Origin: Thelephora terrestris
Taxonomy: Eukaryota; Basidiomycota; Agaricomycetes; Thelephorales; Thelephoraceae
Assembly: GCA_015956445.1 (NCBI GenBank)
Contig: WIUZ02000019.1
Location: forward strand, 682,001-746,000
Length of the DNA stretch: 64,000 nt
Reading direction: 5' to 3'
Under the pieces are notes generated by a model. It had not been told where the DNA came from. It searched no databases and saw only the letters and a list, made by a program, of their open reading frames with translations. Of the stretch, positions 31,751 through 47,184 are shown one piece after another. Within the stretch, counting starts at the first letter, position 1; each line of letters opens with the position of its first letter. The position numbers and the translations under genes are program-made.

Positions 31751-32790
31751 TTGAATGCTTCTTGGAACGGTGGTCGTCACACCTCTCCTCTGCGAGAACA
31801 TGAATGCTCATTACCGCACCCATGGGGAGGCCGGTCAACCTGGAAACCACACCCTTCTCGAGAGTCCGATTGACAGGGCCACTCTTCGCCCTTCAGGTAC
31901 CAGTGCTGTTGGTGAGTCGCAACTCCAACCAACAAGAAACAATGGGGCAAAGGGGGAACGACTTCCCTATATCCACCCAAAGTCTACGTGGTCCAAAACA
32001 CGATGGACGAGTGTTCTCCGGTAGTTTGTCCGAATTCACAGCAGGAGTGCCGAGCCTCTATCTGATAAATCCCTATCTTCGTCCGAGGGCAGATGTGAGA
32101 GCCCGAGGATGGTGCCTCAAACTGGTGCTTGATCAAGAGAGCGACGAGGAACTCCTTTTTGTAAGCGCGTTCGCCGATTCTTGATGCAAGGCCAAGAGAG
32201 AGAGGAGAGCGAACATGTTCAAAGAGGTACTCGATAAGCTCTTCAGTGGCCTACAGCAAATACACCGATGCTGCAAGGAGAAGAGGACTTCCCGAGATAT
32301 CAAAGATAGGGAATCCTCAGCTACTCTACTGGTACCTATATAGGAGAGTGGCCGGGACAGAGATAACCCTATCTAATAATAACTCGGAGCAAAGAAGGGC
32401 TGAGAGTAAGCCAGAACAGTAAGCGGCCTGGAACATAGAATAGAAATGATAAAGGAATGACTAATGGGTCAGGGCTTGTGAGAAAACAAGAAAGGGGTCA
32501 TGATGTCGTGTGGGAAAGGAATGACAAAGGACAATATCACATGCGAAGACTGACCAATAAGAGGATGACGCGTCAGCTCGTCCGATCGGGACAACAAAGG
32601 ACCGAGTGGGGCTTGAGTTGCGAGGCGAATGTATGGGGAGTCTGGACTGGTGAAACAATGGACCGATCCAATGGCGAATAGGGCGCGAGCGCTGTCAATG
32701 GTCGGATAAAGCGTAGTGTGAACCGGCCATTGGATCCATCAAACTCCCTTCTTCCCAAATCAACAATCCCACCAACCAACTACTCCTACC
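31751..32790. other. no gene recognised; possible promoter of W
   Basis: Short frames only. 32680-32790 precedes the W gene and includes CAATCCCACCAACCAACTACTCC directly before its ATG, like a leader. Confidence 0.4.
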
Positions 32791-34532
32791 ATGCCGATGA
32801 CTTCTGATTGCGTTTTCCGTGCTGAGAACAGCACCGCTACCATCGAGTCCGCGGATCCTTGTTCCGTACAGAACAAGGGGTACTTCCTTCCGAATGCCAA
32901 TGTGGCGTATCCCAGTTATCGAGAGGCGCGTTGTCACGCGTACGCCGGTTGTTGGCGTTCGACTGACATCGCTTTCACAGATCTTCACAGCTGCCGACAA
33001 GGTGGACGCCCGACAACTGGAGGCTACGATTGCCAAGCCTCCCAGTTACCTGACCATGGACGACGAGTTGTGGTTTCACAACTTGATCGACCACCAGCTG
33101 CAGGAGTTGATGCGTGGGGTGACGTTCAACACTGAGTTACGCATGCTGTATGAGACTCCGGTGGCGTCAGCGCTGTGGGGTCTTCTGCGGATGGGAATCT
33201 ACGACCTGGGAAACGGCAAAGGAAGGTGGCCCGGAGCTACTCGCTCCCAACACTACACAGCAGCCGTTGGTCACCGTCTCTGGTTCCTGTTGCGGCGGAA
33301 CAGAAAGCGGTGAGTCGATCTGTGCATCCCGCTTGTGGGATAACACTGATTGGCTTGTAGAACGAGCGTTTGAAGCGCGAGGTGAAGGAAGCGAAGGACA
33401 ACGCCCGCAGAATGTACTCGGAGGCGTTGGACACCAAGAAGATGTTTCTCCTGATGAACGACACGCTTCGTGTGACGTTTGAGAGCGAGATGTTGGCGAT
33501 GTGCGAGGAACACAACCGACTGGTCGAGTCGTTGAAGGAAAGGGACAACACCATACAGCGGGACCTGATTGAGGTCGATCGACAGCTCAATCGTCATAGA
33601 AGGACCTTAAATGAGCTGGACACCAAGGTTGGTGTGACTTCTCTTGGTCTTTTAACCGAGAGAGCTCATGCCACTTCTAGGTTGACACACTGGATGACGC
33701 CTTGCCGTTGCTGGGTGCTCGGGTCGAGTCCATGAGTGAGCGGCTGTGCCACTGTCGTACTTGTTCGGTGGCAGCAGTTCGTGACGAGTCAATTCCGGAC
33801 AGGATGGCTTCCCCTATAGGTTCGGGATGCCGGTTGACATATTTGACCTGTCTGCTGACATTCCGCTAGCCTCTGATGGTTCGTACCGTACGCCGGCGCG
33901 TACCGATGGTGGGGAGGAGGTCGTTTGCGAGATGTCCGAGGAGACGGCAGTCAACCCGGTTAGTAGTTTGCCTGAGTTGGAGTACGCAGGGGAGAACGAG
34001 GTGGCCGTTCCAGTTCCGCCTCCTTCGATCTCTCCAGTGCGTGGACAATGTTCCATTCGTGCTCGTCGATGGGTTCCTTACAACGGTGCTTGTCGTCCAG
34101 CCCATCGCATGTGTCCCAGCAATCCCGACGCTGTCCGCCAGGGTGGAGACATCGAGTCCACCGTCCTATTCCAATGCGACGATGTTGCAGTGTCGCCTGG
34201 ATCGCGGCGAGCTGATCCCCGTGGAGTCCGTCGACGTGAACGGGTTAACAAACCTTACGGTCTTGTCGGTCCAGCGTGCAGCGGAGGCCGTGCGCTTGGT
34301 GGCTCAACTGACCGAGAGAGTGGAGGGTTGGTCAGTCCAGAGGACTCAGGATCAGACTATGGTCGATTCAGCGAGGAACCGCCTTCGCGCCGAAGTTCAG
34401 CTGGCCGTAGCTCATCTTCTGGAGGAAGCTCTGGTCGTCGAGATGGTTGACAAGGAAGCCGTCGAGAGTGCCTCGGAGGGGACGGAGGAGGAGGTTGCCA
34501 GTGCTGAGGAGTACTGGCAGACCAGGTCTTGA
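32791..34532 (+). CDS. W-family multi-exon coiled-coil protein (model approximate)
   Basis: Not recognised; it resembles the Z genes in plan. The likely coding path uses at least six exons. These are MPMTSDCVFRAENSTATIES at 32791; IFTAADKVDARQLEATIAKP; after a short intron near 33225, LVPVAAEQKA; from 33361 NERLKREVKEAKDNARRMYS with a long coiled coil to NELDTK; from 33683 VDTLDDALPLLGARVESMSE; from 33880 SDGSYRTPARTDGGEEVVCE; and from 34101 PIACVPAIPTLSARVE to stop TAG at 34530-34532 (AEEYWQTRS). Donor GTGAGT at 33311 and acceptors TTGTAG, TTCTAG and GTCCAG fit the phases; the first two introns are under 80 nt and uncertain. The C-terminus is helical and acidic. Confidence 0.5.
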
Positions 34533-34807
34533 CGACTAGGGTTGGTGCTCTTTTTAGTCCTTGTCCATAGAGTCGGTGCGGATTCAACTCCGTTGGCTGT
34601 TCGTCTTGTGTCTTCGTTGCGGGTTCGCCCGTTGTAATATCATCTGTGTCTTTGTCTGTGCCTTTTGGATGACGTGTGAGTCGTGAGTGGGGAGACTGAT
34701 AAGATAAGAAAGGGGTATAGATAAGGAAAGTGGGTGAAAGTTGGGTGTGAAAATGGTTTGAAAAGAGGGTAAAATTCAGCACGCTGACAGTGGCTCGCTC
34801 TTCGACT

Positions 34808-35062
34808 ATGTCGACAGCACTGCCGAACAGTCACCCGGTCCTGGAGATGCTGAACCAAGTACTCCAAAGTTCGGTGACCTCTGGTCAGCTGGTGGGACCC
34901 TTCGAAGGAGCCTCTTCATATCGGCTTGAACTAACCGTTCAGTTGAGCACTGAGGATGGGGATGCCCTGTTTGGAGAGCTGCTTGCTGGGAGAGGAGGTT
35001 GGTTGAACCAGGATGGACAGATGGAGCATTGGGTTCCCATTGAGGATAGGATCGACTTTTGA
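34808..35062 (+). CDS. small 84-aa ORF downstream of W
   Basis: ATG 34808, stop 35060-35062. It reads STALPNSHPVLEMLNQVLQS, with later ELLAGRGGWLNQDGQMEHW. It is predicted to be soluble and helical at the start. It lies 275 bp after W on the same strand. No family recognised, and it could be chance. Confidence 0.35.
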   Translation: MSTALPNSHPVLEMLNQVLQSSVTSGQLVGPFEGASSYRLELTVQLSTEDGDALFGELLAGRGGWLNQDGQMEHWVPIEDRIDF

Positions 35063-35487
35063 TGGACTATTATATTGACGCATCGTATAGAGACACGCTT
35101 AGTCTCATTGTATAGTCTTGTGGTTCCGGTTTGCTTTGAATGTAGTGTGCGTTTGGTTTGTTCAAATGGTTGAGAATGAAGAATAAGGAGTGTAAAGCAT
35201 TCAAACATAAGAACGGTAAGAAAGTTCGAAGAAAGAGAGTGTTATAAAAAAGTTTAAAAATACCATGTTCCTGACAGTATCATGGGAATGTTTGGAAATG
35301 AATGTGGGTTGGCTGAGTAATAGCCAATAGCAAAAGGGGAGCATATGACTAAGGATAGGGACATATGATATGATGTGGGTCATGTCACGAACGCGTGACA
35401 TAGTAGCCAAGATCGCACAAGTAGTTCAAGACATTGGTCTCATTCGCAGTAGTAATAGTACAAAGATGGGAAAAAGGAACTACAAAC

Positions 35488-36391
35488 TCAAACAAGAACA
35501 AACGGGTCGACATCGCATGAACAGTTCTGAGGAAGGGGGCAACGATGAGCAAAGTGGTGAGGGTTATACACACTCTCAGGACAGTAAAACCATTCTCGCG
35601 TCACCGGATCCTGCCAACACTCCCTACACCCCAACACATCATGAGACAAGCTATCATACATCTCCCGCTTCACATCCGACAAGGCTGCGCTCACTAAGGC
35701 GAACCCATAGCGGTCTTGGAGACCCGCCACTTCCACCTTCAACTTCATCCGAACCTGACGTGACTTGTCGGAGGGACGACAACGTTGACCAGAACGAGTC
35801 ATCGGACTCTTGCGGGTCTTCTTCTTCTGGGACCTCTCCACCATCTGGCGAACTGGGGCAGGACTCCAGGGAGGGGATGGAGGGAGAGGAACGCCCTGAT
35901 CCTGGCGGTGGCGAAGGGACGACTGGGGACTTGCAAGGGGGGTCGGTGCAATAAGCTCCGTGGCATGGGTGTCCGAAATATCGGAAGAGAGATGCCTGGA
36001 AAGGTCCCCAATGTTCCAAAGCAAAATGAGAGAAGTCATCATTCAAGCTGTTCATGATGACGTACATGAGATCCACACGCTTCTCCAACTTCGCGATCCT
36101 ATCTTCCCTCTCCCTCTCCATGGCGTCCAACAGAAGGACGGCTCCAGGATGATTAGCCTCAACTTGAGGCCTAACGAGTCGGGGATCTTCGTACCCAGCT
36201 TGCTCCCAGAATTCGGCAGGAGCATTGTGGGCGGTAAGGAAGTCGACGGCGACCTGGTTGTTGTAAGCGATGTTGGCGGGGGTATCGTACAAATGTTGCT
36301 CCACGTCGTAAGGAGCGTCCGTCTCGAAGGATGGAGTAAAGGGGGTGGCAGCGGCGTTGAGAACGACATTGTTAGCAACGAAGGCAGACAT
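35488..36391 (-). CDS. XY element protein Y, copy 1 (277 aa)
   Basis: Unrecognised protein. Exon 1 36391-36066, 70-nt intron (AT|GTACGT ... TTTCCAG|GC), exon 2 35995-35488. N-terminus MSAFVANN with an alanine-rich start and FLTAHNAPAEFWEQAGYED. A short coiled coil EREREDRIAKLEKR lies before the splice. A proline-rich linker (LPPSPPWSPAPVRQMVERSQ) and a basic stretch (RSGQRCRPSDKSRQVRMKLK) follow. The C-terminus is Cys/His-rich: CRECW, YCPES, NPHHFAHRCP, CDVDPFVLV. The Cys/His residues are kept in all three copies while linker residues vary, pointing to selection and perhaps metal binding. An alternative open frame through the unspliced intron is not conserved in copy 3. Confidence 0.75.
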
Positions 36392-37047
36392 AGTAGTAGT
36401 AGATGTATAGGGAGGAGAGTGGTATTGGTGATTGTGGGAGTGGAAAAGAGGCGATGGAGGGAACGATCATTAATCCCCCTGGCTTAAATACATCCTGACT
36501 CAAAGGCAAACCGGAAGGAGAAAACAATAACCCATTATCCATTAAAGTCCGAATTAGGATAAACAAACCCTTAACCCTGATCGTGATCCCATCAAACTCC
36601 GAGAAATCCCCATCGATCATGAGAATTCCCCACCACGCTTCTATTGCTACCATTGATCCAGAGAAATCCCCATCGATCACGAGAAATCCCCACCACGCTT
36701 CTATTGCTACCACGAAACACGAGAAATCCCCGAATGCTTCTATCAACTCGTGCTCCTATTGTTCCCGTATGAGTAATTACTATCTGTCGTCCTAAGTCCC
36801 CTCATTCTGACTCGTCTACCCTACCCTAAACTACGCACAGACCATGTTGACCCCTGTTTGACTCGTTGTAGAATAATGACTCCTGTAGAGGATTGGGTAT
36901 ATAAGGAAGAGCATTCGCTCCTACTTTTCCCCATTCTCAATCTCTTCTGTACTCCTCTACTCATAACCTGAATACAAGTAAGCTGAGGAATTCTCCTCAC
37001 GTCTTGCCTTTTCTAACTCATTTTAGCAGGAATCCTCCTGCCAGTGT
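36392..37047. promoter_or_regulatory. divergent X/Y promoter with GAGAAATCCCCA repeats, copy 1
   Basis: A 656-bp region between two start codons. TATA-like CTTAAATA at 36483-36490 serves Y and TATATAAGG at 36898-36906 serves X. Five GAGAAATCCCCA-like motifs sit at about 36600-36735. A 5'-UTR intron for X is likely (AA|GTAAGC ... TTTTAGCAG, about 36980-37030). Confidence 0.65.
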
Positions 37048-37671
37048 ATGTTCAACGCCCCTAACCCTTTCCCATCTACAAGTCCCGTTCAGCAACCAGT
37101 TGTCCCAGACGCTAGGAGATCTATCTGGGAGTATAAACTCATCAGAAGTCTTCAAGTAAACCGAACCGCCGGTTTACTCACCCATTTCCCTTACTATCGT
37201 CCCTTTGCAGCTCTCGACGCCGGAGTCACTACTCCCCCTTTCCTTCTAGGCGCAGACCATCAGTTCCTTTGGAACTCAGACCTCACTGAGAGTGTCCTAG
37301 CAACCGTCTATTTCAGCGTTAGCCCCGCCTTTTATTTCCCGTCTCCAAAAGTTCATTTAACCACCAACGTTCACACTCACTGCCCTGCTCTCATCGTCCT
37401 TTGGTGGGACATCCCTACTGAACTACCTTATTCGATTATAGAATATCTCGTTCACTTCGAACAACTCAGCGGTCAAGATTTCGAACCGTTCGTTCAGCAA
37501 CTGAACCAGTTTTGCCAAGACTATAACTCACCCGTCCACCCTTATCAGACAGAGTCGCCACTCTCTCTTGATATTCCTCCTCCTCTCACCTCTACGCCCG
37601 GAACCCCCTTCAAAACTCGACCCGACACCCGACACCCCTCCGCTAATCCTCTAGCGCCCCACAAACAGTAA
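37048..37671 (+). CDS. XY element protein X, copy 1 (207 aa)
   Basis: Unrecognised, intronless. N-terminus NAPNPFPSTSPVQQ, then ARRSIWEYKLIRSLQVNRTA, FPYYRPFAALDAGVTTPPFL and LGADHQFLWNSDLTESVLAT. A hydrophobic core FYFPSPKVHLTTNVHTH and ALIVLWWDIPTELPYSIIEY follow, with a Pro/Thr-rich tail ending APHKQ. The stop is 20 bp inside the element end. Three copies stay full length and open with about 90% or more identical residues, mostly conservative changes, indicating coding constraint. There is no signal peptide or membrane helix. Function unknown. Confidence 0.75.
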   Translation: MFNAPNPFPSTSPVQQPVVPDARRSIWEYKLIRSLQVNRTAGLLTHFPYYRPFAALDAGVTTPPFLLGADHQFLWNSDLTESVLATVYFSVSPAFYFPSPKVHLTTNVHTHCPALIVLWWDIPTELPYSIIEYLVHFEQLSGQDFEPFVQQLNQFCQDYNSPVHPYQTESPLSLDIPPPLTSTPGTPFKTRPDTRHPSANPLAPHKQ

Positions 37672-37691
37672 GCAGGCCTACAACCCTGACA

Positions 37692-37826
37692 GGTCATGCG
37701 CAGTAAACAATAGAAAAGATGACTCAGCTCCTGAGTCATGGAAGGGGCATGGCATTTGGTATATACCCAAAGGGGGTTGGATGACTAGGTCTCCCAACAA
37801 ACCACCCTTTGTTACACACAGTCAAC
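37692..37826 (+). promoter_or_regulatory. Z copy B core promoter with paired TGACTCA sites
   Basis: TGACTCA at 37720-37726 and its inverse TGAGTCA at 37732-37738 form a Gcn4/AP-1-like pair. TATA-like TATATACCC follows at about 37760, 60-70 bp before the ATG. Copy A keeps one site and the TATA. XY copy 1 is inserted directly upstream. Confidence 0.5.
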
Positions 37827-39975
37827 ATGCCTCGTGCCAACATCTGTTCTATCTCTTGTTGCCTCTCTGTTTCTCCAGTCATGGAGAACAACTTCAACAT
37901 TGACTGTTTTTCTTATGCTCATCGTGATAGGTCCCGCCCTTATCCCACTCTTGGGAACGTTATAGACCGTTCTGCCACCGCCGACCCTGAGGAAGGTTTT
38001 ACCGACTTAGGTGGGGGGCCTGGTTACACATTCCGATTTAGGAAATGCTAACCAGACACCTTTTTAGGATTCAGGGACTTCATTCAAGCTTCTTGTAGGG
38101 TGTCTCGGTGCAAGTTGGCGCGTATCAAGACTAACCCTTATGCGGAAGAACTCCTTACTCGCGGGGTCGAGTTCGTTACTGAAATGAACGAGACTTACAA
38201 CTCGATCCTGGAGGCTAGTGTTACTCATACGAGTAATGTTGGTACCATGTTAATGGACGAGTTGGCCTACGTTCAGGCCCGTGTTGACAATAGGAAGGAG
38301 GACACCAAGAAGCTTGAAGAATGGAAGGAGACCGCGCAAGATATCATGCATGGACAGGAGGACACCATTATTCAGCAGTTGGCCGATATTGACTTGCTGA
38401 AGGGGGAGTTGGTTACCATGAAGGACTTGGTCCGGAGTTTGGTTTCCAAGACTGATAGGTTGGAGGATGACAGGGTAAGGGGTTGGGGTAGAACATCTTT
38501 TGGTTCGTTCTAACCCATTCCTTTGTAGGTCCATCTTACTCGTCGTGTCTCGGAATTGACCAGAGAAGTCCGGGATCTTCAGAGAAGATGTCAGGAGCCG
38601 GAAGTTCGGGTTGGTGAAGAAGAGCCGATGATTCCAGAGCGTGCTGAGTCTCCACCTGCTGGGTTCATGGTCCCGGTCGAGGGTCGGTTGGTCCCGGTTG
38701 ATGACAAGGTCATTGAAATTGGTGAGGAAGAGTTCTATCAGAACCTTGGGATCGTCCGTAGGGACACCCCTCATCCGGTTACACTGGGGACAAGCCCCCA
38801 CTTATTGACCAGGTACTTTTTGAACACATTGTAGTTCCATGTCTAATGTACCAACACTTTGCTGGGCAAGAACAAGTTGAGTTCTTTCAGAATGTACTGA
38901 ACAATGTAACTACTACTTCCCAGCTCAGGACATTGTGGAAACATTCAAAAGGTACTGAATCATGTGACCACAATGTCTCTGATCAGTAATTGCTCAGTAC
39001 TTTTTGATTGTCCCAAAGAAAGTGATCAACAAGTACCTGCACTGCACATTGTGGTTTCAATCAAAATTTACTGGGTCATGTGACCACAAAGTACCAAATC
39101 AGTGAATGCTGAGTACTTCTAGAATGTCCTGAGCCCATGTGTCCCAATTTTACCTGAGTGGCTCAAAGAAAATGTGATCACAAAGTACTGAGACTGGGTA
39201 AATCCTGAACACTTTTTGAAAGAAACCAAAATATACTGAATCCTTTAAAAAGTACTGTGCAACGATTCAGTATATTTTGGTTTCTTTCAAAAAGTGTTCA
39301 GGATTTACCCAGTCTCAGTACTTTGTGATCACATTTTCTTTGAGCCACTCAGGTAAAATTGGGACACATGGGCTCAGGACATTCTAGAAGTACTCAGCAT
39401 TCACTGATTTGGTACTTTGTGGTCACATGACCCAGTAAATTTTGATTGAAACCACAATGTGCAGTGCAGGTACTTGTTGATCACTTTCTTTGGGACAATC
39501 AAAAAGTACTGAGCAATTACTGATCAGAGACATTGTGGTCACATGATTCAGTACCTTTTGAATGTTTCCACAATGTCCTGAGCTGGGAAGTAGTAGTTAC
39601 ATTGTTCAGTACATTCTGAAAGAACTCAACTTGTTCTTGCCCAGCAAAGTGTTGGTACATTAGACATGGAACTACAATGTGTTCAAAAAGTACCTGGTCA
39701 GTAAGTAGGGACTTGCCCCCAGTGTTAGAAGGTTAACTCCTCTAATCACCGTTACAGACACCACCTTGCCGAGGGGCCAATGGCCGGTTCAGGATTTTGA
39801 TCCGTACGCTGAGTTTGTCCCTGACTCGGAACCAAACTCTGATTCAGAACTTCCTAATTACAACGATTTGTCCGATGTAGATCCGAACGAGATTAGGGAG
39901 CAGAACTGGGTGAACAAGGAGTTGGTGAGAACCGCCTTGGAGGCCGTACAGAGGATTCGCAGGGATTTTGATTAG
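37827..39975 (+). pseudogene. Z-family coiled-coil gene, copy B, broken by a foldback MITE
   Basis: Unrecognised family. Exons 37827-38010, 38068-38474 and 38529-39975 without the MITE. Text includes NIDCFSYAHRDRSRPYPTLG, RIKTNPYAEELLTRGVEFVT, a long coiled coil (about 38200-38560, for example MKDLVRSLVSKTDRLEDD) and an acidic tail (NYNDLSDVDPNEIREQNW ... AVQRIRRDFD). The 943-bp foldback with TTA duplication sits in exon 3. Subtracting it and one TTA leaves 1092 nt, an intact 363-codon frame, so the gene was open when the MITE arrived. With the MITE present the frame ends inside it. Confidence 0.7.
38782..39724. mobile_element. 943-bp foldback MITE, 461-bp arms, TSD TTA
   Basis: Starts CACTGGGGACAAG and ends CTTGCCCCCAGTG; flanked by TTA on both sides (38779-38781, 39725-39727). 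The two arms (38782-39242, 39264-39724) are equal in length and nearly perfectly complementary, around a 21-nt centre. No coding potential. CACTG ends plus a 3-bp duplication fit the CACTA (CMC/EnSpm) superfamily. Confidence 0.9.
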
Positions 39976-40429
39976 TAGATAGTTCCTCTGTACTATTGGC
40001 TTTCGCTTTTGAATCAATCTTCTTTCTTGTCTATTGTGCGTGATCCATGGGTCATAAAACATAATGGTTTTCATAAGTCCAATCCAAGGGTCAGATTAAT
40101 AAGCTGGTTGACTTCTGTGAGCGGTCAACATGTGACACTTATTAATACATCCCTTGTTGTCAGTAGCCTGAATCTTTACTTGTCTTCAGGAGGCAACGGA
40201 GGGCCAGGTAGGGGGAACCTTGGTAAGGATTCGCCGGTACATGTTCACGTATTATACCTCGGGTCTTCTGGGGTATCTTGACTAGTAACATGTTCCATGT
40301 ATTGGACTTTGAGTCGTTAGACATAGGCATATTGCATAATAAACAGTTTACCGCCGTGTTTAGGGCAGGGCACCAACTGACTTAGTGCCATCTTGGCCTG
40401 TGAAATGAGTGGGAGAAGAAGAAGGAACA
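39976..40429 (+). repeat. Z-element 3' region and spacer before the LTR
   Basis: 39976-40386 matches 23985-24400 in reverse (TTATTAATCTGACCCTTG, TTTACCGCCGTGTTTAGGGC). The last 43 bases before the LTR at 40430 are unique in this window. Confidence 0.6.
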
Positions 40430-40684
40430 TGTTGAACCGGAGGTCTATGCCCGGCAACGGGTCAACCGGCTCCACCGCTTTGAGCGAGAGCTGATGCCGG
40501 AGAGCACTCAAGAAGCGACCCGAAGAGACGGTATCACATCAGTGATCCGATCGATTGGTATGACGCGCGTGTGCCTTAAGTGTCACGAAGCGTGACATAT
40601 TGGCTAAAATCACACAAATAGTCAAAGACATTGGTCTCATTCAAAGTAATAAAAATACAAAGACAACCAGTAAAAACTACCGCT

Positions 40685-42092
40685 TCAAACAAGAACAAAC
40701 GGATCTACGTCACAAGGACACTCTTGAGCAAACGGACAACGGTGAGCGAAATGATGAGGGTTATGTACGCTCTCAGGGCAGTACGAATACGCTCGAGTCA
40801 CCGGGTCAACCCAGCACTCTCGGCACCCCAATACATCATGATACAAACTCTCATACATCTCTCGCTTCACGTCCGACAAGGCCGCGCTCACTAATGCGAA
40901 CCCATAACGGTCTTGGAGACCCGCCACTTCCACCTTCAACTTCATCCGAACTTGACGTGACTTGTCGGAGGGACGACAGCGTTGACCAGAACGAGTCATC
41001 GGATTCTTGCGGTTCCTTTTCTTCTGGGATCTCTCCACCATCTGGCGAACTGGGGCAGGACTCCAGGGAGGGGATGGAGGGAGAGGAATGCCCTGATCCT
41101 GGTGGCGGCAAAGGGATGACTGGGGACTTGCAAGGGGGGTCGGTGCAATAAGCCCCGTGACACTGGTGTCCGAAATATCGGAAGAGAGATGCCTGGAAAG
41201 GTCCCCAATGTTCCAAAGCAAAGTGAGAGAAGTCATCATTCAAACTGTTCATGATGACGTACATAAGATCCACGCGCTTCTCCAACTTCGCAATCCGATC
41301 CTCCCGTTCTCTCTCCATAGTGTCCAACAGAAGGACAGCTCCAGGATGTCTAGCCTCAACCTGACACTGGGGGCAGGGGCACCTGGAATTTGTGATTTCA
41401 TCTTGATTACATGGTGAGTTCATGTGCACTTTTCAATGATTGTAATCACCGATTCCAGGTTGATTACATTTCAAATGTTACCTTGACATGTAATCCAACT
41501 GTTGCCACCAACTCCATTTGAAATTTCCTTAAGATGTTCCCAAGCAATGTTTCCTGAATGTGCCCAGTGGGTACATTGTGAAAACATCTCATGTTTTTGA
41601 GTGCATTTAGATTACATCTCAGACAATTGAAGAACATGTTGACTACATTGCAGTATCATTTTTGCTGACAGGTCAAAAGCATCCCAGAAACATTTGTTGA
41701 GAACATTTCAAATGAAATTGGTGGACATTGACTGGATTACATGTCAAGGTAACATTTGGAATGTAATCAACCTGGAATTGGCGATTACAATCATTGAAAA
41801 GTGCACATGAACTCACCATGTAATCAAGATGTAATTACCAATTCCAGGTGCCCCTGCCCCCAGTGTGAGGCCTAGCAAGTTGGGGATCTTCGTACCCGGC
41901 CTGTTCCCAGAACTCGGCAGGAGCGTTGTGAGCGGTCAGGAAATCTACCGCTACCTGGTTGTCGTGAGCAATGTTGGCGGGGGTATCGTACAGGTGTTGT
42001 TCCATGGCGAAAGGAGCATCCGTCTCAAAGGACGGGGTAAAAGGGGTGGCGGCAGCGTTAAGCACGGCGTTGCTGGCGATGAAGGCAGACAT
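40685..42092 (-). pseudogene. XY protein Y, copy 2, interrupted by a MITE
   Basis: N-terminus MSAFIASNAVLNAAATPFTP up to GYEDPQLARP, then the MITE at 41365-41865, then VEARHPGAVLLLDTMERERE, the conserved 70-nt intron and the C-terminal exon with CRECW, YCPES and NPHHFAHRCP. Without the MITE the frame would be open. With it, exon 1 ends shortly after entering the insert. Confidence 0.75.
41365..41865. mobile_element. 501-bp CACTG MITE, TSD TGA
   Basis: Ends CACTGGGGGCAGGGGCACCTGG and its inverse. Inverted arms reach well over 100 bp (ATTACATGGTGAGTTCATGTG near both ends). Flanked by TGA at 41362-41364 and 41866-41868. XY copies 1 and 3 lack it, so the empty site is visible. Confidence 0.9.
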
Positions 42093-42770
42093 GACGAAAT
42101 AGATGTTTAGGAGAGGGTGGTGATTGATTTGGTGGGAGTGGAAAAGAGACGATGGAGGGAACGATTATTAATCCCCCTGACTTAAATACATTCTGACTCA
42201 AAGAAAACCAAAAGGGGAGAACAATAACCTATTGTCCATTAACCACCCCCATTAGGATAAACGAACCCTCAGCCCCAATCTCGATCCCATCAATCCCGAG
42301 AAATCCCCATCCGTCTTCTACTGCTACCGCGAAACGAGAGAAATTCCCACCGATCACGAGAAATTCCCACCGATCACGAGAAATTCCCACCGATCACGAG
42401 AAATCCCCACCAGTCTTCTATTACCACCGTCAATCGCGAGAAATCCCCATTATGCTTCTAATGACTCTGTCACTATTGTTCCCCTATTGTATTTCGTCAG
42501 TTATCGTTCCAAAGTTCCACTCCCCTGACTCGTCTGACCTACCCTAAACTACGCACAGACCATGTTGACTCATGTTTGACTCGTTGTAAAATAATGACTC
42601 CTGTAGAGGATTGGGTATATAAAGAAGAGCGTTCGCTCCTTTCTTTTCCCCATTCTCAATCTCTTCTGTACTCCTCTACCTACAACCTGAATATAAAGTA
42701 AGCCTGAGGAATTCTCCTCACGTTCTACTCCCTCTAACTCATTCCAAAGCAGGAATCTTCCTGCCAGTGT
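42093..42770. promoter_or_regulatory. divergent X/Y promoter, copy 2
   Basis: Six GAGAAATCCCCA / GAGAAATTCCCA motifs at about 42295-42455, three of them in a perfect CCGATCAC-spaced run. TATATAAAG at 42616-42624 serves X and CTTAAATA at 42181-42188 serves Y. Confidence 0.65.
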
Positions 42771-43394
42771 ATGTTCAGCGCGCCCAATCCTTTCCCCTCC
42801 ACTAGTCCAGTCACACGCCCCAACATCCCCGACGCCAGGAGGTCTATCTGGGAGTATAAACTCATCAGAAGTCTCCAAGTAAATCGTACCAACGGTTTAT
42901 TAACTCATTTCCCTTATTATCGACCCTTCGCTGCCCTTAACACAGGAGTCACCACTCCTCCTTTTCTTCTAGGCGCAGACCATCAGTTCCTTTGGAACTC
43001 AGACCTCACTGAGAGTGTCCTAGCGACCGTCTATTTCAGCGTTAGCCCTGCCTTTTATTTCCCATCTCCCAAAGTTCATTTAACCACCAACGTTCACACT
43101 CCCTGTCCTGCTCTCATTGTCCTTTGGTGGGACATCCCAACTGAACTACCTTACTCAATTATAGAATATCTCGTTCACTTCGAACATCTCAGCGGTCAAG
43201 ACTTTGAACCGTTCGTTCAGCAGTTAAATCACTTCTGCCAAGACTACAACTCGCCCGTCCACCCTTATCAAACAGAGTCACCACTCTCGCTTGATATCCC
43301 TCCTCCTCTCGTCTCTACACCCGGAACCCCCTTCAAAACTCGACCCGACACCCGACACCCCTCTGCTAATCCTCTAGCGCCCCACAAACAGTAA
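42771..43394 (+). CDS. XY element protein X, copy 2 (207 aa)
   Basis: Full-length homologue of the 37048 gene with no gaps. Variation is concentrated in the first 20 residues (TSPVTRPNIPDARR). The core LGADHQFLWNSDLTESVLAT is unchanged. Open and apparently intact although the partner Y gene of this copy is broken. Confidence 0.75.
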   Translation: MFSAPNPFPSTSPVTRPNIPDARRSIWEYKLIRSLQVNRTNGLLTHFPYYRPFAALNTGVTTPPFLLGADHQFLWNSDLTESVLATVYFSVSPAFYFPSPKVHLTTNVHTPCPALIVLWWDIPTELPYSIIEYLVHFEHLSGQDFEPFVQQLNHFCQDYNSPVHPYQTESPLSLDIPPPLVSTPGTPFKTRPDTRHPSANPLAPHKQ

Positions 43395-43595
43395 GCAGGC
43401 CCTCAACCCTGACATTAAGCCGCTGCACGGACCCTGCATCAGTCACGCTATACAGTTGTGACATCAATAGAGTAGATAGATCAATCAATCGCTTCTCTCT
43501 CTTTCTCTCCCATTAGCAACTATAAGCCTCTCCCCTTCAGGTAAGACTTAGAGTATCCATGTAGTAGTATAGTATTATACTCTATCTGCTCAACA

Positions 43596-43816
43596 GAACG
43601 GACATCTGAAAAATTTTGAACAGGGGGAATGAAAACAAGTGGGTTGTGAAAGTTCAAGTGTGCTGCTTTCGGTTGTTGTAACTGGCTGCTGAAGGGTGTA
43701 CCACCGGGGGTCCATAGACCTCGAGTCTCGTGACTTGTCACGTGCAAGAGATCGGTCTCTCGCTGGGTCTCTCGTGTCTCAGAAGCCGACCCCGCCTCCT
43801 TCACTTTCCGCTTACG
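43596..43816 (+). promoter_or_regulatory. remaining TAM41 upstream region
   Basis: 221 bp of unique sequence between the solo LTR and the proposed TAM41 ATG. The insertion of LTR plus XY copy 2 places about 3 kb of repeat directly upstream. No TATA box is obvious. Confidence 0.35.
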
Positions 43817-43865
43817 ATGATCCTCACCCGCAACCTGCATCCTCCTGTCAGGGTTGTAGGCCTGC

Positions 43866-44489
43866 TTACTGTTTGTGGGACGCTAGAGGATTAGCGGATG
43901 GGTGAGGAGTGTCGGGTCTGGTTTTGAAGGGGGTTCCGGGTGTTGAAACGAGGGGAGGCGGAATATCAAGAGAGAGGGGTGACTCTGTCTGATAAGGGTG
44001 AACGGGTGAGTGGTAGTCTTGGCAGAACTGATTCAGCTGCTGCACAAAGGGTTCGAAGTCTTGGTCGCTAAGGCGTTCGAAATTGACGAGATATTCTATA
44101 ACAGAGTAAGGTAATTCAGTTGGAATTTCCCACCAGAGAACGATGATAGCAGGAGAGTGGGTGTGGATGTTAGTGGTGAGGTAGACACGTGGAGAGGGGA
44201 AGTAAAAGGCTGGGCTGATACTGAAATAAACAGTCGCGAGGACGCTCTCAGTAAGATCTGAATTCCAAAGGAATTGATGATCTGCTCCCAGGAGAAAGGG
44301 AGGGGTAGTGACTCCGGCGTCGAGAGCTGCGAAGGGTCGGTAGTAAGGGAAATGAGTAAGTAAACCGGTGGTTCGGTTTACTTGAAGGCTTCTGATGAGT
44401 TTATACTCCCAGATAGACCTCCTAGTGTCAGGGACGGTTGGTCGCTGGACTGGACTTGTAGAGGGGAAGGGATTGGGGGCACTGAACAT
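43866..44489 (-). CDS. XY element protein X, copy 3 (207 aa)
   Basis: Same length as the other two copies. Differences such as SVIEYLVNFERLSDQDFEPF are scattered and conservative. The stop codon is 20 bp from the element end as in the other copies. Confidence 0.75.
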   Translation of the reverse strand: MFSAPNPFPSTSPVQRPTVPDTRRSIWEYKLIRSLQVNRTTGLLTHFPYYRPFAALDAGVTTPPFLLGADHQFLWNSDLTESVLATVYFSISPAFYFPSPRVYLTTNIHTHSPAIIVLWWEIPTELPYSVIEYLVNFERLSDQDFEPFVQQLNQFCQDYHSPVHPYQTESPLSLDIPPPLVSTPGTPFKTRPDTPHPSANPLASHKQ

Positions 44490-45164
44490 ACACTGGCAGG
44501 AGGATTCCTGCTGAAAGGAGTTAGAAGAGGTAAGGCGTGAGGAGAATTCCTCAGCTTACTTTTATTCAGGTTGTGGGTAGGGGAGTACAGAAGAGATTGA
44601 GAATGGGGAAAAGAAGGAGCGAACGCTCTTCCTTATATACCCAATCCTCTCAGGAGTCATTATTCTACAGCGAGTCAAACAGGGATCAACATGGTCTGTG
44701 CGTAGTTTAGGGTAGGGTAGATGAGTCAGAATGAGGGGACTTAGAACGACAGATGGTAATTATTAGTACGGGAACAGTGGAGGCGCGAGTCGATGGAAGC
44801 ATTCGGGGATTTCTCGTGTTTCATGGTAGCAATAGAAGCGTGGTGGGGATTTCCCATGCTCGATGGGGATTTCTCTGGATCGATGGTAATGATAGAAGCG
44901 TGATGGGGATTTCCCATGATCGATGGGGATTTCTCTGGATCAACGGTAGTAGTAGAAGCGTGATGGGATCGCGATCGGGGCTGAGGGTTTGTTTATCCTA
45001 ATTAGGACTTTAATGGATAATGGGTTATTGTTTCCCTTTCCGGTTCTTCCCTTGAGTCAGGATATATTTAAGTCAGGGGGATTAATGATCGTTTCCCTCA
45101 TCGTCTCTTTTCCTCTCCCACAATCACCAGTATCACCCTCTTCTTCAAAACACCTACCACTACT
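44490..45164. promoter_or_regulatory. divergent X/Y promoter, copy 3
   Basis: Five TGGGGATTTCTC-like motifs (the inverse orientation) at about 44805-44945. TATA-like TATATACC/CTTATATA at 44632-44640 serves X, and ATATATTTAAG near 45062 serves Y. Confidence 0.65.
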
Positions 45165-46068
45165 ATGTCTGCTTTCGTTGCCAACAACGCCGTTCTCAAC
45201 GCCGCCGCCACCCCCTTCATTCCGTCCTTTGAGACGGACGCTCCCTACAACGTGGAGCAGCATCTATATGACTCCCCCGCCAACATTGCTCATGACAACC
45301 GAGTTGCCGTTGACTTCCTCACCGCACACAATGCTCCCGCCAAATTCTGGGAGCAGGCTGGGTACGAAGACCCCAGACTTTCTAGGCCTCAGGTTCAGGC
45401 TGCTCATCCTGGAGCTGTTCTGTTGTTGGATGCCATGGAGAGGGAGAGGGAGGATAGGATTGCGAAGTTGGAGAAGCGCGTGAACCTCATGTATGTCATC
45501 GTGAACAGTTTGAACGATGACTTTTCTCACTTCGCATTGGAACATTGGGGACCTTTTCAGGCATCTCTCTTCTGATATTTCGGACATCAATGCCACGGGG
45601 CTTATTGCACCGACCCCCCCTGCAAGTCCCCAGTCGTCCCTTTGCCACCGCCAGGATCAGGGCGTTCCTCTCCCTCCGTCCCCTCCCTGGAGTCCTGCCC
45701 CAGTTCGCCAGATGGTGGAGAGGTCCCTGAAGAAGAAGAACCGCAAGAGTCCGATGACTCGTTCTGGTCAACGTTGTCGTCCCTCCGACAAGTCACGTCA
45801 GGTTCGGATGAAGTTGAAGGTGGAAGTGGCGGGTCTCCAAGACCGCTATGGGTTCGCCTTAGTGAGCGCAGCCTTGTCGGACGTGAAGCGGGAGATGCAT
45901 GATAGTTTATATCATGATGTGTTGGGGTGTAGGGATTGTTGGCAAGATCCGGTAACGCGAGCGTACTCTTATTGTCCTGAGAGTGTTCATAACCCTCATC
46001 ACTTCGCTCACCGTTGTCCGTTTGCTCAGGACCGCGCTTGTGACGTGGATCCGTTCGTTCTTGTCTGA
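45165..46068 (+). CDS. XY element protein Y, copy 3 (277 aa)
   Basis: Exons 45165-45490 and 45561-46068 (AT|GTATGT ... TTTTCAG|GC, 70-nt intron), total 834 nt. The unspliced frame hits TGA after ASLF in this copy, supporting splicing as the true path. C-terminal Cys/His pattern CRDCW, YCPES, NPHHFAHRCP, CDVDPF is preserved. Confidence 0.78.
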
Positions 46069-47184
46069 ATTTGTAGTTTTTGTTAGTCTTCTTTGTACTA
46101 TTATTACTGCGAATGCGACCAATGTCTTGAACTATTTGTGTGATCTTGGCTACTATGTCACGCGTTCGTGACACCTCCTCCTTGCAATGCTCGCCTCTTT
46201 CATCGTTGCTCCTTTTCTGCAGAGCCAGTCTCCCATTCTCCTACCCAGTCAACACCACCATCACCACCGCCCCTGCCAAATGCCCAAAGGCCAAGAATAC
46301 AGAAGACCTGGACCCAGCAGGGACCCATATCTACCTCATCTTCCCCCTACCTTTGGCAAAAATCAACTTCTGCCCGTAGCAGATTCTACCCGGATGCTTT
46401 TGGAATCAATCGTCTCAAAATTCAATGCTCCCATTTGGTACGCCTTCGCATACGGTTCGGGAGTCTTTGAGCAAGACGGTTACTCGTCCATGAAGAAGCC
46501 GATGATTGACTTTGTTTTTGCCGTTAATCACACTTTGCATTGGCACTCCATAAACATGGCACAGTTCCCGGGACACTACCCGCTTTACTCACGTGCGTTG
46601 GGTTCTGATTTTGTCGCACGTGTCCAGGAGATATCACTAGGTCTCTGGTTCAACACTTATGTGCCCATGAACAACGTGGTACGTTGATCGGCGCAACTTG
46701 TTATATTCCTCCTCAATGACTCTTCGTTTTGGGCAGACGATCAAGTACGGGGTAACAACAGTCGATAATCTCTGCTCAGACCTCCTGAATTGGGACGCCC
46801 TTTATCTTGCCGGCAGGATGCACAAGCCCATCAGGATCATCAAAGGCGACCCACGGGTTCGACTCACCCAACAAGTAAACCTGACATCAGCGATACGGGC
46901 CGCTCTCCTGACGCTTCCGGAAAGATTCTCCGAAACCGAACTTTTCAAAAAGATAACTAGCTTCAGCTATGGTGGTGACATTCAAATGTTCTTGCCCGCG
47001 GAGAACCAAAACAAAGTGTGCAACATCGTACAGAAACAGGGTCCACAATTCAAGGAGCTGTATTACCGTCTCATGGCAGGATTGCCTGGCGTGTATTGGA
47101 AAAACCACAGTACATTGATCCTTCAGGACACGTCGCCGAACGCTAGGCTAGCCCACTTGCACAAACTTCCGTCGGGATTGTTGA

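Follow-up and report, generated by a model that had tools for sequence, protein, structure and literature searches.

XY is a repeat unit with two divergent genes, X and Y, that is present three times in a 64,000-nucleotide stretch (the window; contig C11, 682001-746000) of the 40.6-Mb, 60-contig genome of the ectomycorrhizal basidiomycete Thelephora terrestris. Our analysis makes it fairly probable that XY is the solo long terminal repeat (LTR) of a Tf1/sushi-like Ty3/gypsy chromovirus, from a group whose giant LTRs bear genes. This reading is favoured because the same genome contains chromoviruses of two families, here named Z and V, whose gene-bearing LTRs are about 3 kb long and have similar terminal motifs. 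X and Y are real genes, most of whose open reading frames (ORFs) are intact; their location and the way in which Y is read are the new aspects.

Ends, target duplications and copies of XY

The first copy in the window is the complete unit TGTCACGAACGCGTGACA...CAACCCTGACA at 35383..37691 on the plus strand, with the target site duplication (TSD) GGTCA at 35378..35382 on its left and 37692-37696 on its right. The second (40581..43414, plus strand) lies between copies of TTAAG, and the third (43846..46173, minus strand) has the TSD GGAGG/CCTCC. A sequence-only reading of the window had already proposed these three copies with TGTCA/TGACA ends and the 5-bp TSDs GGTCA, TTAAG and CCTCC, and this was confirmed. 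Genome-wide, exact XY ends were found at 275 left and 303 right positions, against 0 for reversed-pattern controls, so that chance is excluded. When left and right ends were paired, 47 of 52 copies had exact 5-bp TSDs: these were perfect in 31 of 33 uninterrupted copies (two of the 31 being one inverted duplication, L025) and in 16 of 19 interrupted ones, and among the uninterrupted copies there were 0 matches at 3, 4, 6 or 7 bp. The five misses were L018, where a nested piece follows, L028, where four of five bases agree, L066, L063 and L067. TSDs of 5 bp at the unit's own ends also speak against XY being an inner piece of a larger known element, one of the cases that the earlier reading had named as its refutation.

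The ends are of the TG...CA type, TGTCACGAAC...CCCTGACA, with the terminal 5 bp inverted, and TGTCACG...CCTGACA matches the Sushi integrase motif TGTYANR...CNTNACA given in Table 3 of PMC3601003. No terminal direct repeats of at least 40 nt were found inside the unit, which therefore does not have the structure of a terminal-repeat retrotransposon in miniature (TRIM) or a large retrotransposon derivative (LARD), namely two LTRs around a primer-binding site and a polypurine tract. Ginger elements have long terminal inverted repeats (TIRs) and a 4-bp TSD, whereas XY has no integrase, no long TIRs and no 4-bp TSD. The likeness lies in the ends: those of Ginger 1 begin TGTNR (PMC3601003). Inside XY there is no integrase-like transposase, just X and Y, neither with a Pfam match over cut-off, and a Ginger-type element is thus not what was found. 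A purine tract, AGGA within 6 nt, precedes the left end in 15 of 275 cases, with no longer flank common to them. The left end itself (35383-35400) is an 18-bp near-palindrome, TGTCACGaacgCGTGACA, not seen at Z or V left ends.

A DNA search with the window copy, in which the best 40 of 399 candidates were scored, gave at least 51 matches, and copy statistics rest mainly on best matches to that copy. From 36 aligned copies a set of 35 was obtained by leaving out one inverted duplicate. Nearest neighbours within this set differ by 5.7-10.9%, apart from one pair at 0.7%, and private substitutions amount to less than 1% in 29 of the 35. Linkage decays with distance (34 copies, 275 sites): mean r2 is 0.114 at separations below 20 bp, 0.033 at 800-1500 bp and 0.040 at 1500-2600, and none of 1000 permutations was as extreme. 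The XY copies are mosaics, a pattern to be expected from template switching or gene conversion. Variants of X by codon position number 35/26/61 for singletons against 34/21/199 for those shared between copies, and this suggests that most of the diversity of XY arose in active sources and little of it after insertion.

The genes X and Y

X is a 207-aa sense ORF, at 37048..37671 on the plus strand of the first copy, and is found in all three window copies, as the earlier reading had stated (42771-43394, intact, in the second; 43866-44489, minus strand, in the third). Its variability at the three codon positions is 0.029/0.014/0.193 in the 36 aligned copies. It is intact in 31 of 35 copies, and three of the four misses lack a right end in the stretch examined; like those for Y below, this figure is biased upward by the choice of best matches to the window copy, older divergent copies often having stops. 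The X stop codon ends 20 nt before the right end of the unit, in the first window copy as in 32 of 35 copies, which leaves XY no room for an X 3' untranslated region (UTR) of its own. Between X and the divergent Y lies an intergenic region (36400..37047) with a minisatellite (36609-36754) of the ~60-nt kind and a conserved TATA-containing segment ahead of X (about 36883-36982).

Protein searches with X gave 9 and 10 related proteins and the search with Y gave 37; the relatives of both come from T. terrestris, JGI and two other sources. Neither protein had a Pfam match over cut-off, and weak matches of one Y frame (frame B, below) under it were rejected. PDB matches were likewise rejected as unconvincing: 3poh at E 0.4 for X, and for Y SAKe6EEref at E 0.0012, covering profile positions 144-212 in the serine- and acid-rich part. 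The predicted structure of X has a mean pLDDT of 42.5 with no confident fold and is unusable as a model; a nuclease fold of X is neither shown nor excluded by it.

Y lies at 35488..36391 on the minus strand and has one strong intron candidate, 70 nt running GTACGT...TTCCAG (36065-35996). Its predicted removal yields the 277-aa protein of the earlier reading (36391-36066 joined to 35995-35488), and the unspliced form gives 245 aa in the other frame, frame A (36391-35654). Of the 35 copies, 34 have an open spliced frame, 32 an open frame A and 33 an open frame B, taken from the ATG at 36042; the donor GTACGT is kept in 30 copies and the acceptor TTCCAG in 33. Y thus appears to yield two proteins, by splicing or retaining the intron, with the next 339 nt (35657..35995, minus strand) being read in two frames, A and B.

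We read Y as dual-coding because the intron has a frame A signature, both frames are constrained, and the C-terminus of A is conserved alongside a spliced gene model. Substitutions in the intron fall 35/9/80 at positions 1, 2 and 3 of frame A, a hand sum over 11 alignments of divergent copies, which are related and so not independent. In the shared 339 nt, third-position variability is 0.036 for A and 0.038 for B, against 0.210 where A is read alone and 0.153 where B is, so that the third positions of both frames are four- to six-fold constrained. The C-terminus of frame A is conserved in metagenome proteins down to about 48% identity, and the T. terrestris gene model P0039 is the spliced Y frame. 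Frame A might instead be untranslated, and kept open by a constraint at the RNA, DNA or mutational level in a region coding for B alone. Low variability does reach somewhat past the A stop, declining gradually, with B third positions at 0.064 in 35635-35600, and the relatives from JGI may stem from gene callers that ignore introns. This account is nevertheless quite improbable, given that the intron itself bears the A-frame codon signature and that A is conserved in metagenome proteins while P0039 follows the spliced frame.

In the second window copy, Y is broken by a palindromic insert of about 0.5 kb (41365-41865). In the third, Y lies at about 45165-46068 on the plus strand and its frame A is interrupted by a stop at codon 137.

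Sister families Z and V and the search for an XY provirus

Twenty stretches were fetched, most of them with long spacings between XY ends, and Z was found as an insert in one of these, on C4. The one Z copy that was read fully measures 11.66 kb, has 3.3-kb LTRs that are 99.97% identical, and is flanked by the TSD ATCAC. Its interior encodes a zinc-knuckle gag, protease, reverse transcriptase (RT), RNase H, integrase, SH3_Tf2-1 and a chromodomain; for the integrase the H2C2 domain scored over cut-off and rve was divided between two loci, each half below it. A pol search with the best 51 of 130 candidates scored gave 8 copies of Z (one has an in-frame stop) and, at 62% identity, 3 of the sister family V, whose LTR ends were read from C5. 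From the domains of Z we take Z and V to be members of the Tf1/sushi group. The LTRs of both are about 3 kb long and carry antisense genes with overlapping frames; in Z two frames overlap, and an excess at third positions was seen in 6 sequences, one of them partial. The Z and V antisense proteins are related, at 80.6% probability over 26 columns and with a DDELW exon in common. The divergent genes of XY had been considered unlike an LTR, an objection which antisense genes in Z and V LTRs make invalid.

XY resembles these families in several respects. Its ends, TGTCACGAAC...CCCTGACA, compare with TGTCAGGAAC...CCCTGACA in Z and TGTCAGCGTG...CCCTGACA in V, with TGTCA and CCCTGACA common to all three; XY also shares the 5-bp TSD (with Z), the abundance of solo LTRs and the nests in which they lie. 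Right ends of Z number 404 against 8 pol copies, and left ends of V 140 against 3, and there are 45-48 solos per provirus, so that proviruses are rare in this group. The LTR end CTGGTA of Z and V can pair, by eye, with TACCAG just inside the interior (L058 5541-5620, and L070). Self-priming in Tf1/sushi elements uses such a pairing of LTR end and interior.

The sequence-only reading had left two options, a giant gene-bearing solo LTR or non-autonomous element, and an undescribed mobilisation system to which X and/or Y belong. With the Z and V precedent and the Sushi motif the first is the better reading; the second is weakened, and nothing found ties X or Y to mobilisation. In another proposal, XY would be a DNA transposon whose inverted ends are very short and whose recombinase, the product of X or Y, is unrelated to retroviral integrases. 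It would suit a unit with just two genes and no pol, the inverted 5-bp ends TGTCA/TGACA, and proteins with no Pfam match over cut-off or convincing PDB relative. We judge it improbable, as the ends fit an LTR integrase motif and are like Z and V ends, and mosaic copies are not expected from cut-and-paste alone.

A number of observations weigh against the solo-LTR reading, and a first group of them concerns the provirus. The absence of integrase noted earlier holds for XY itself, and a search for longer copies, with an interior between two XY units, revealed none in what was examined (119 junctions, at least 191 pol matches and a partial XY map). The right-end flanks, 120 rows representing 119 places with one place present twice, showed no common interior after any junction when compared for 12-mers shared within 60 nt; flanks that did recur came from other repeats in differing registers, or were copies of a single place or a single inverted duplication. 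Searches for gypsy RNaseH (93 candidates, all scored, giving at least 92 matches) and copia RT (RVT_2; 102, all scored, at least 99) revealed no XY provirus when set against the partial XY map, which comprised 200 of 578 ends (C1 to part of C12), 51 places, and 138 of 146 further places, the 8 dropped being second halves of listed copies. Just one pol match was flanked on both sides, within 9 kb, by XY on its own strand, and this was a Z nested in XY. No XY end was seen to be followed by ACCAGCC, the primer-like motif of Z and V: its 43 matches comprise 8 Z junctions, 3 V junctions and 32 others, which equal the control (31). Those of the 32 that fall on C1 to part of C12 include no listed XY end; flank L123 has ACCAGC at another register. 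In Z, about 2% of junctions are internal (8 of 404); were the rate in XY equal, finding 0 among 119 would have a probability near 0.09, and the lack of XY proviruses in the sample is thus only mildly unexpected.

The remaining adverse points concern relationship. Profile comparison of Y with the Z and V antisense proteins found no homology (best probability 4.3%), and X, a sense gene, has no counterpart seen in Z or V by eye, no dedicated search having been made. The seventh left base of V departs from the Sushi motif. The XY copies look young, which sharpens the question of where their source is located. The behaviour of XY is that of a giant LTR, which is most likely what it is, although its membership of the group is assigned without its provirus.

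Several candidate proviruses were rejected. The LTR pair C23:1248458/1262777 encloses Helitron-like and Pif1-like frames (by eye); the pair C3:950789/954575 has its second copy inside a V LTR, with flanks CGCTG and CACCG read as a decayed TSD; and longer XY spacings proved to be interrupted copies holding inserts, among them Z, V-like and palindromic elements. At C23:57458/63780, the one remaining paired candidate, two divergent copies of Y are separated by 6.3 kb, with no gypsy RNaseH or copia RT match in the interval. A Helitron Rep-like open frame with Pif1-like pieces was noted by eye between two XY copies on C23 (L048 1095-2816).

With 303 exact right ends and no provirus in what was examined, XY might also be a replicating unit without an interior, LTR-only or LTR-derived, reverse-transcribed and integrated in trans by the Z or V machinery, with X and Y selected for the unit itself. 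In its favour are ends similar to Z and V ends, an intact X in 31 and intact frames A and B in 32 and 33 of the 35 copies, and selection visible in solos. Set against this are the missing room for an X 3' UTR, the upward bias of the intactness figures, and priming without an interior, which has no demonstrated mechanism; moreover, to judge from Z and V, proviruses are in any case rare in this genome. We regard this alternative as possible but rather unlikely. The fuller form of the idea is that the gene-bearing LTR itself became the replicator, using chromovirus integrase and RT in trans, while X and the dual-coding Y are selected in a pool of about 300 recombining copies; this we consider unlikely.

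Proposed origin, known systems and the neighbourhood in the window

If XY is a solo LTR, a provirus with two XY repeats would have been copied through RNA, and its integrase, cutting at TGTCA...TGACA, would have inserted the copy with a stagger of 5 bp. The two repeats would then have recombined, removing gag-pol and leaving a single XY between target duplications. X has sense orientation and follows the core promoter, ahead of the right end; it would for that reason be the first ORF of the full-length RNA, and Y would be an antisense gene in U3 that gives its two proteins through splicing or retention of the intron. By analogy with LTR-located or antisense retroviral genes, X and Y are probably accessory proteins that aid or regulate the element.

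The retroviral genes nef and sag are accessory genes in, or antisense from, LTRs, and are likened to X and Y, in other hosts, by placement alone. The same holds for the retroviral HBZ (PMC3736048), an accessory gene antisense from the LTR, whose hosts differ and which is compared here by gene placement alone. Retand elements of plants (PMC11963269) are described as gypsy elements with conserved antisense genes and tandem repeats, as in XY, but their antisense ORFs lie between pol and the 3' LTR and not in the LTR, and they are plant, non-chromovirus elements. Among the literature matches listed, judged on titles and abstract openings, nothing like LTR-borne antisense genes in fungi was recognised, which is no proof of their absence; PMC5408684 treats extra ORFs of rotifer elements, which are unlike XY, and PMC7550596 the transposable element content of mycorrhizal fungi and not XY-like genes.

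To the left of the first XY copy lies a solo LTR of family V (31871..34789, minus strand) with its antisense gene exons on the plus strand; it has one change at its right end, and its flanking 5-mers, CCGAT/GTGGC, differ. Between the two, 34808-35208 is a Z-like LTR fragment, making a nest of all three families. To the right of the third copy, an ORF pair in 46174-47243 matches Tam41/Mmp37 (PF09139); its first ATG is 13 bases from XY, and the Y gene of that copy points toward it. Long palindromic (foldback) inserts, of about 0.5 to about 4.1 kb, occur in the window at 38781-39725 and 41365-41865, and in L056, L057 (97.5% self-inverse), L061, L062 and L066. Several have CACTGGGGGC...GCCCCCAGTG ends, and several lie within XY units.

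LTRs are usually treated as regulatory DNA. Those described here, in hundreds of copies, bear conserved protein-coding genes on either strand, one of them with two overlapping frames between which intron retention appears to choose. Should solo LTRs retain functional genes, the loss of a provirus through LTR-LTR recombination would leave its accessory functions active, and the solo LTRs could serve as a distributed gene reservoir. The presence of Z and V in the same genome makes the idea of gene-bearing LTRs testable.

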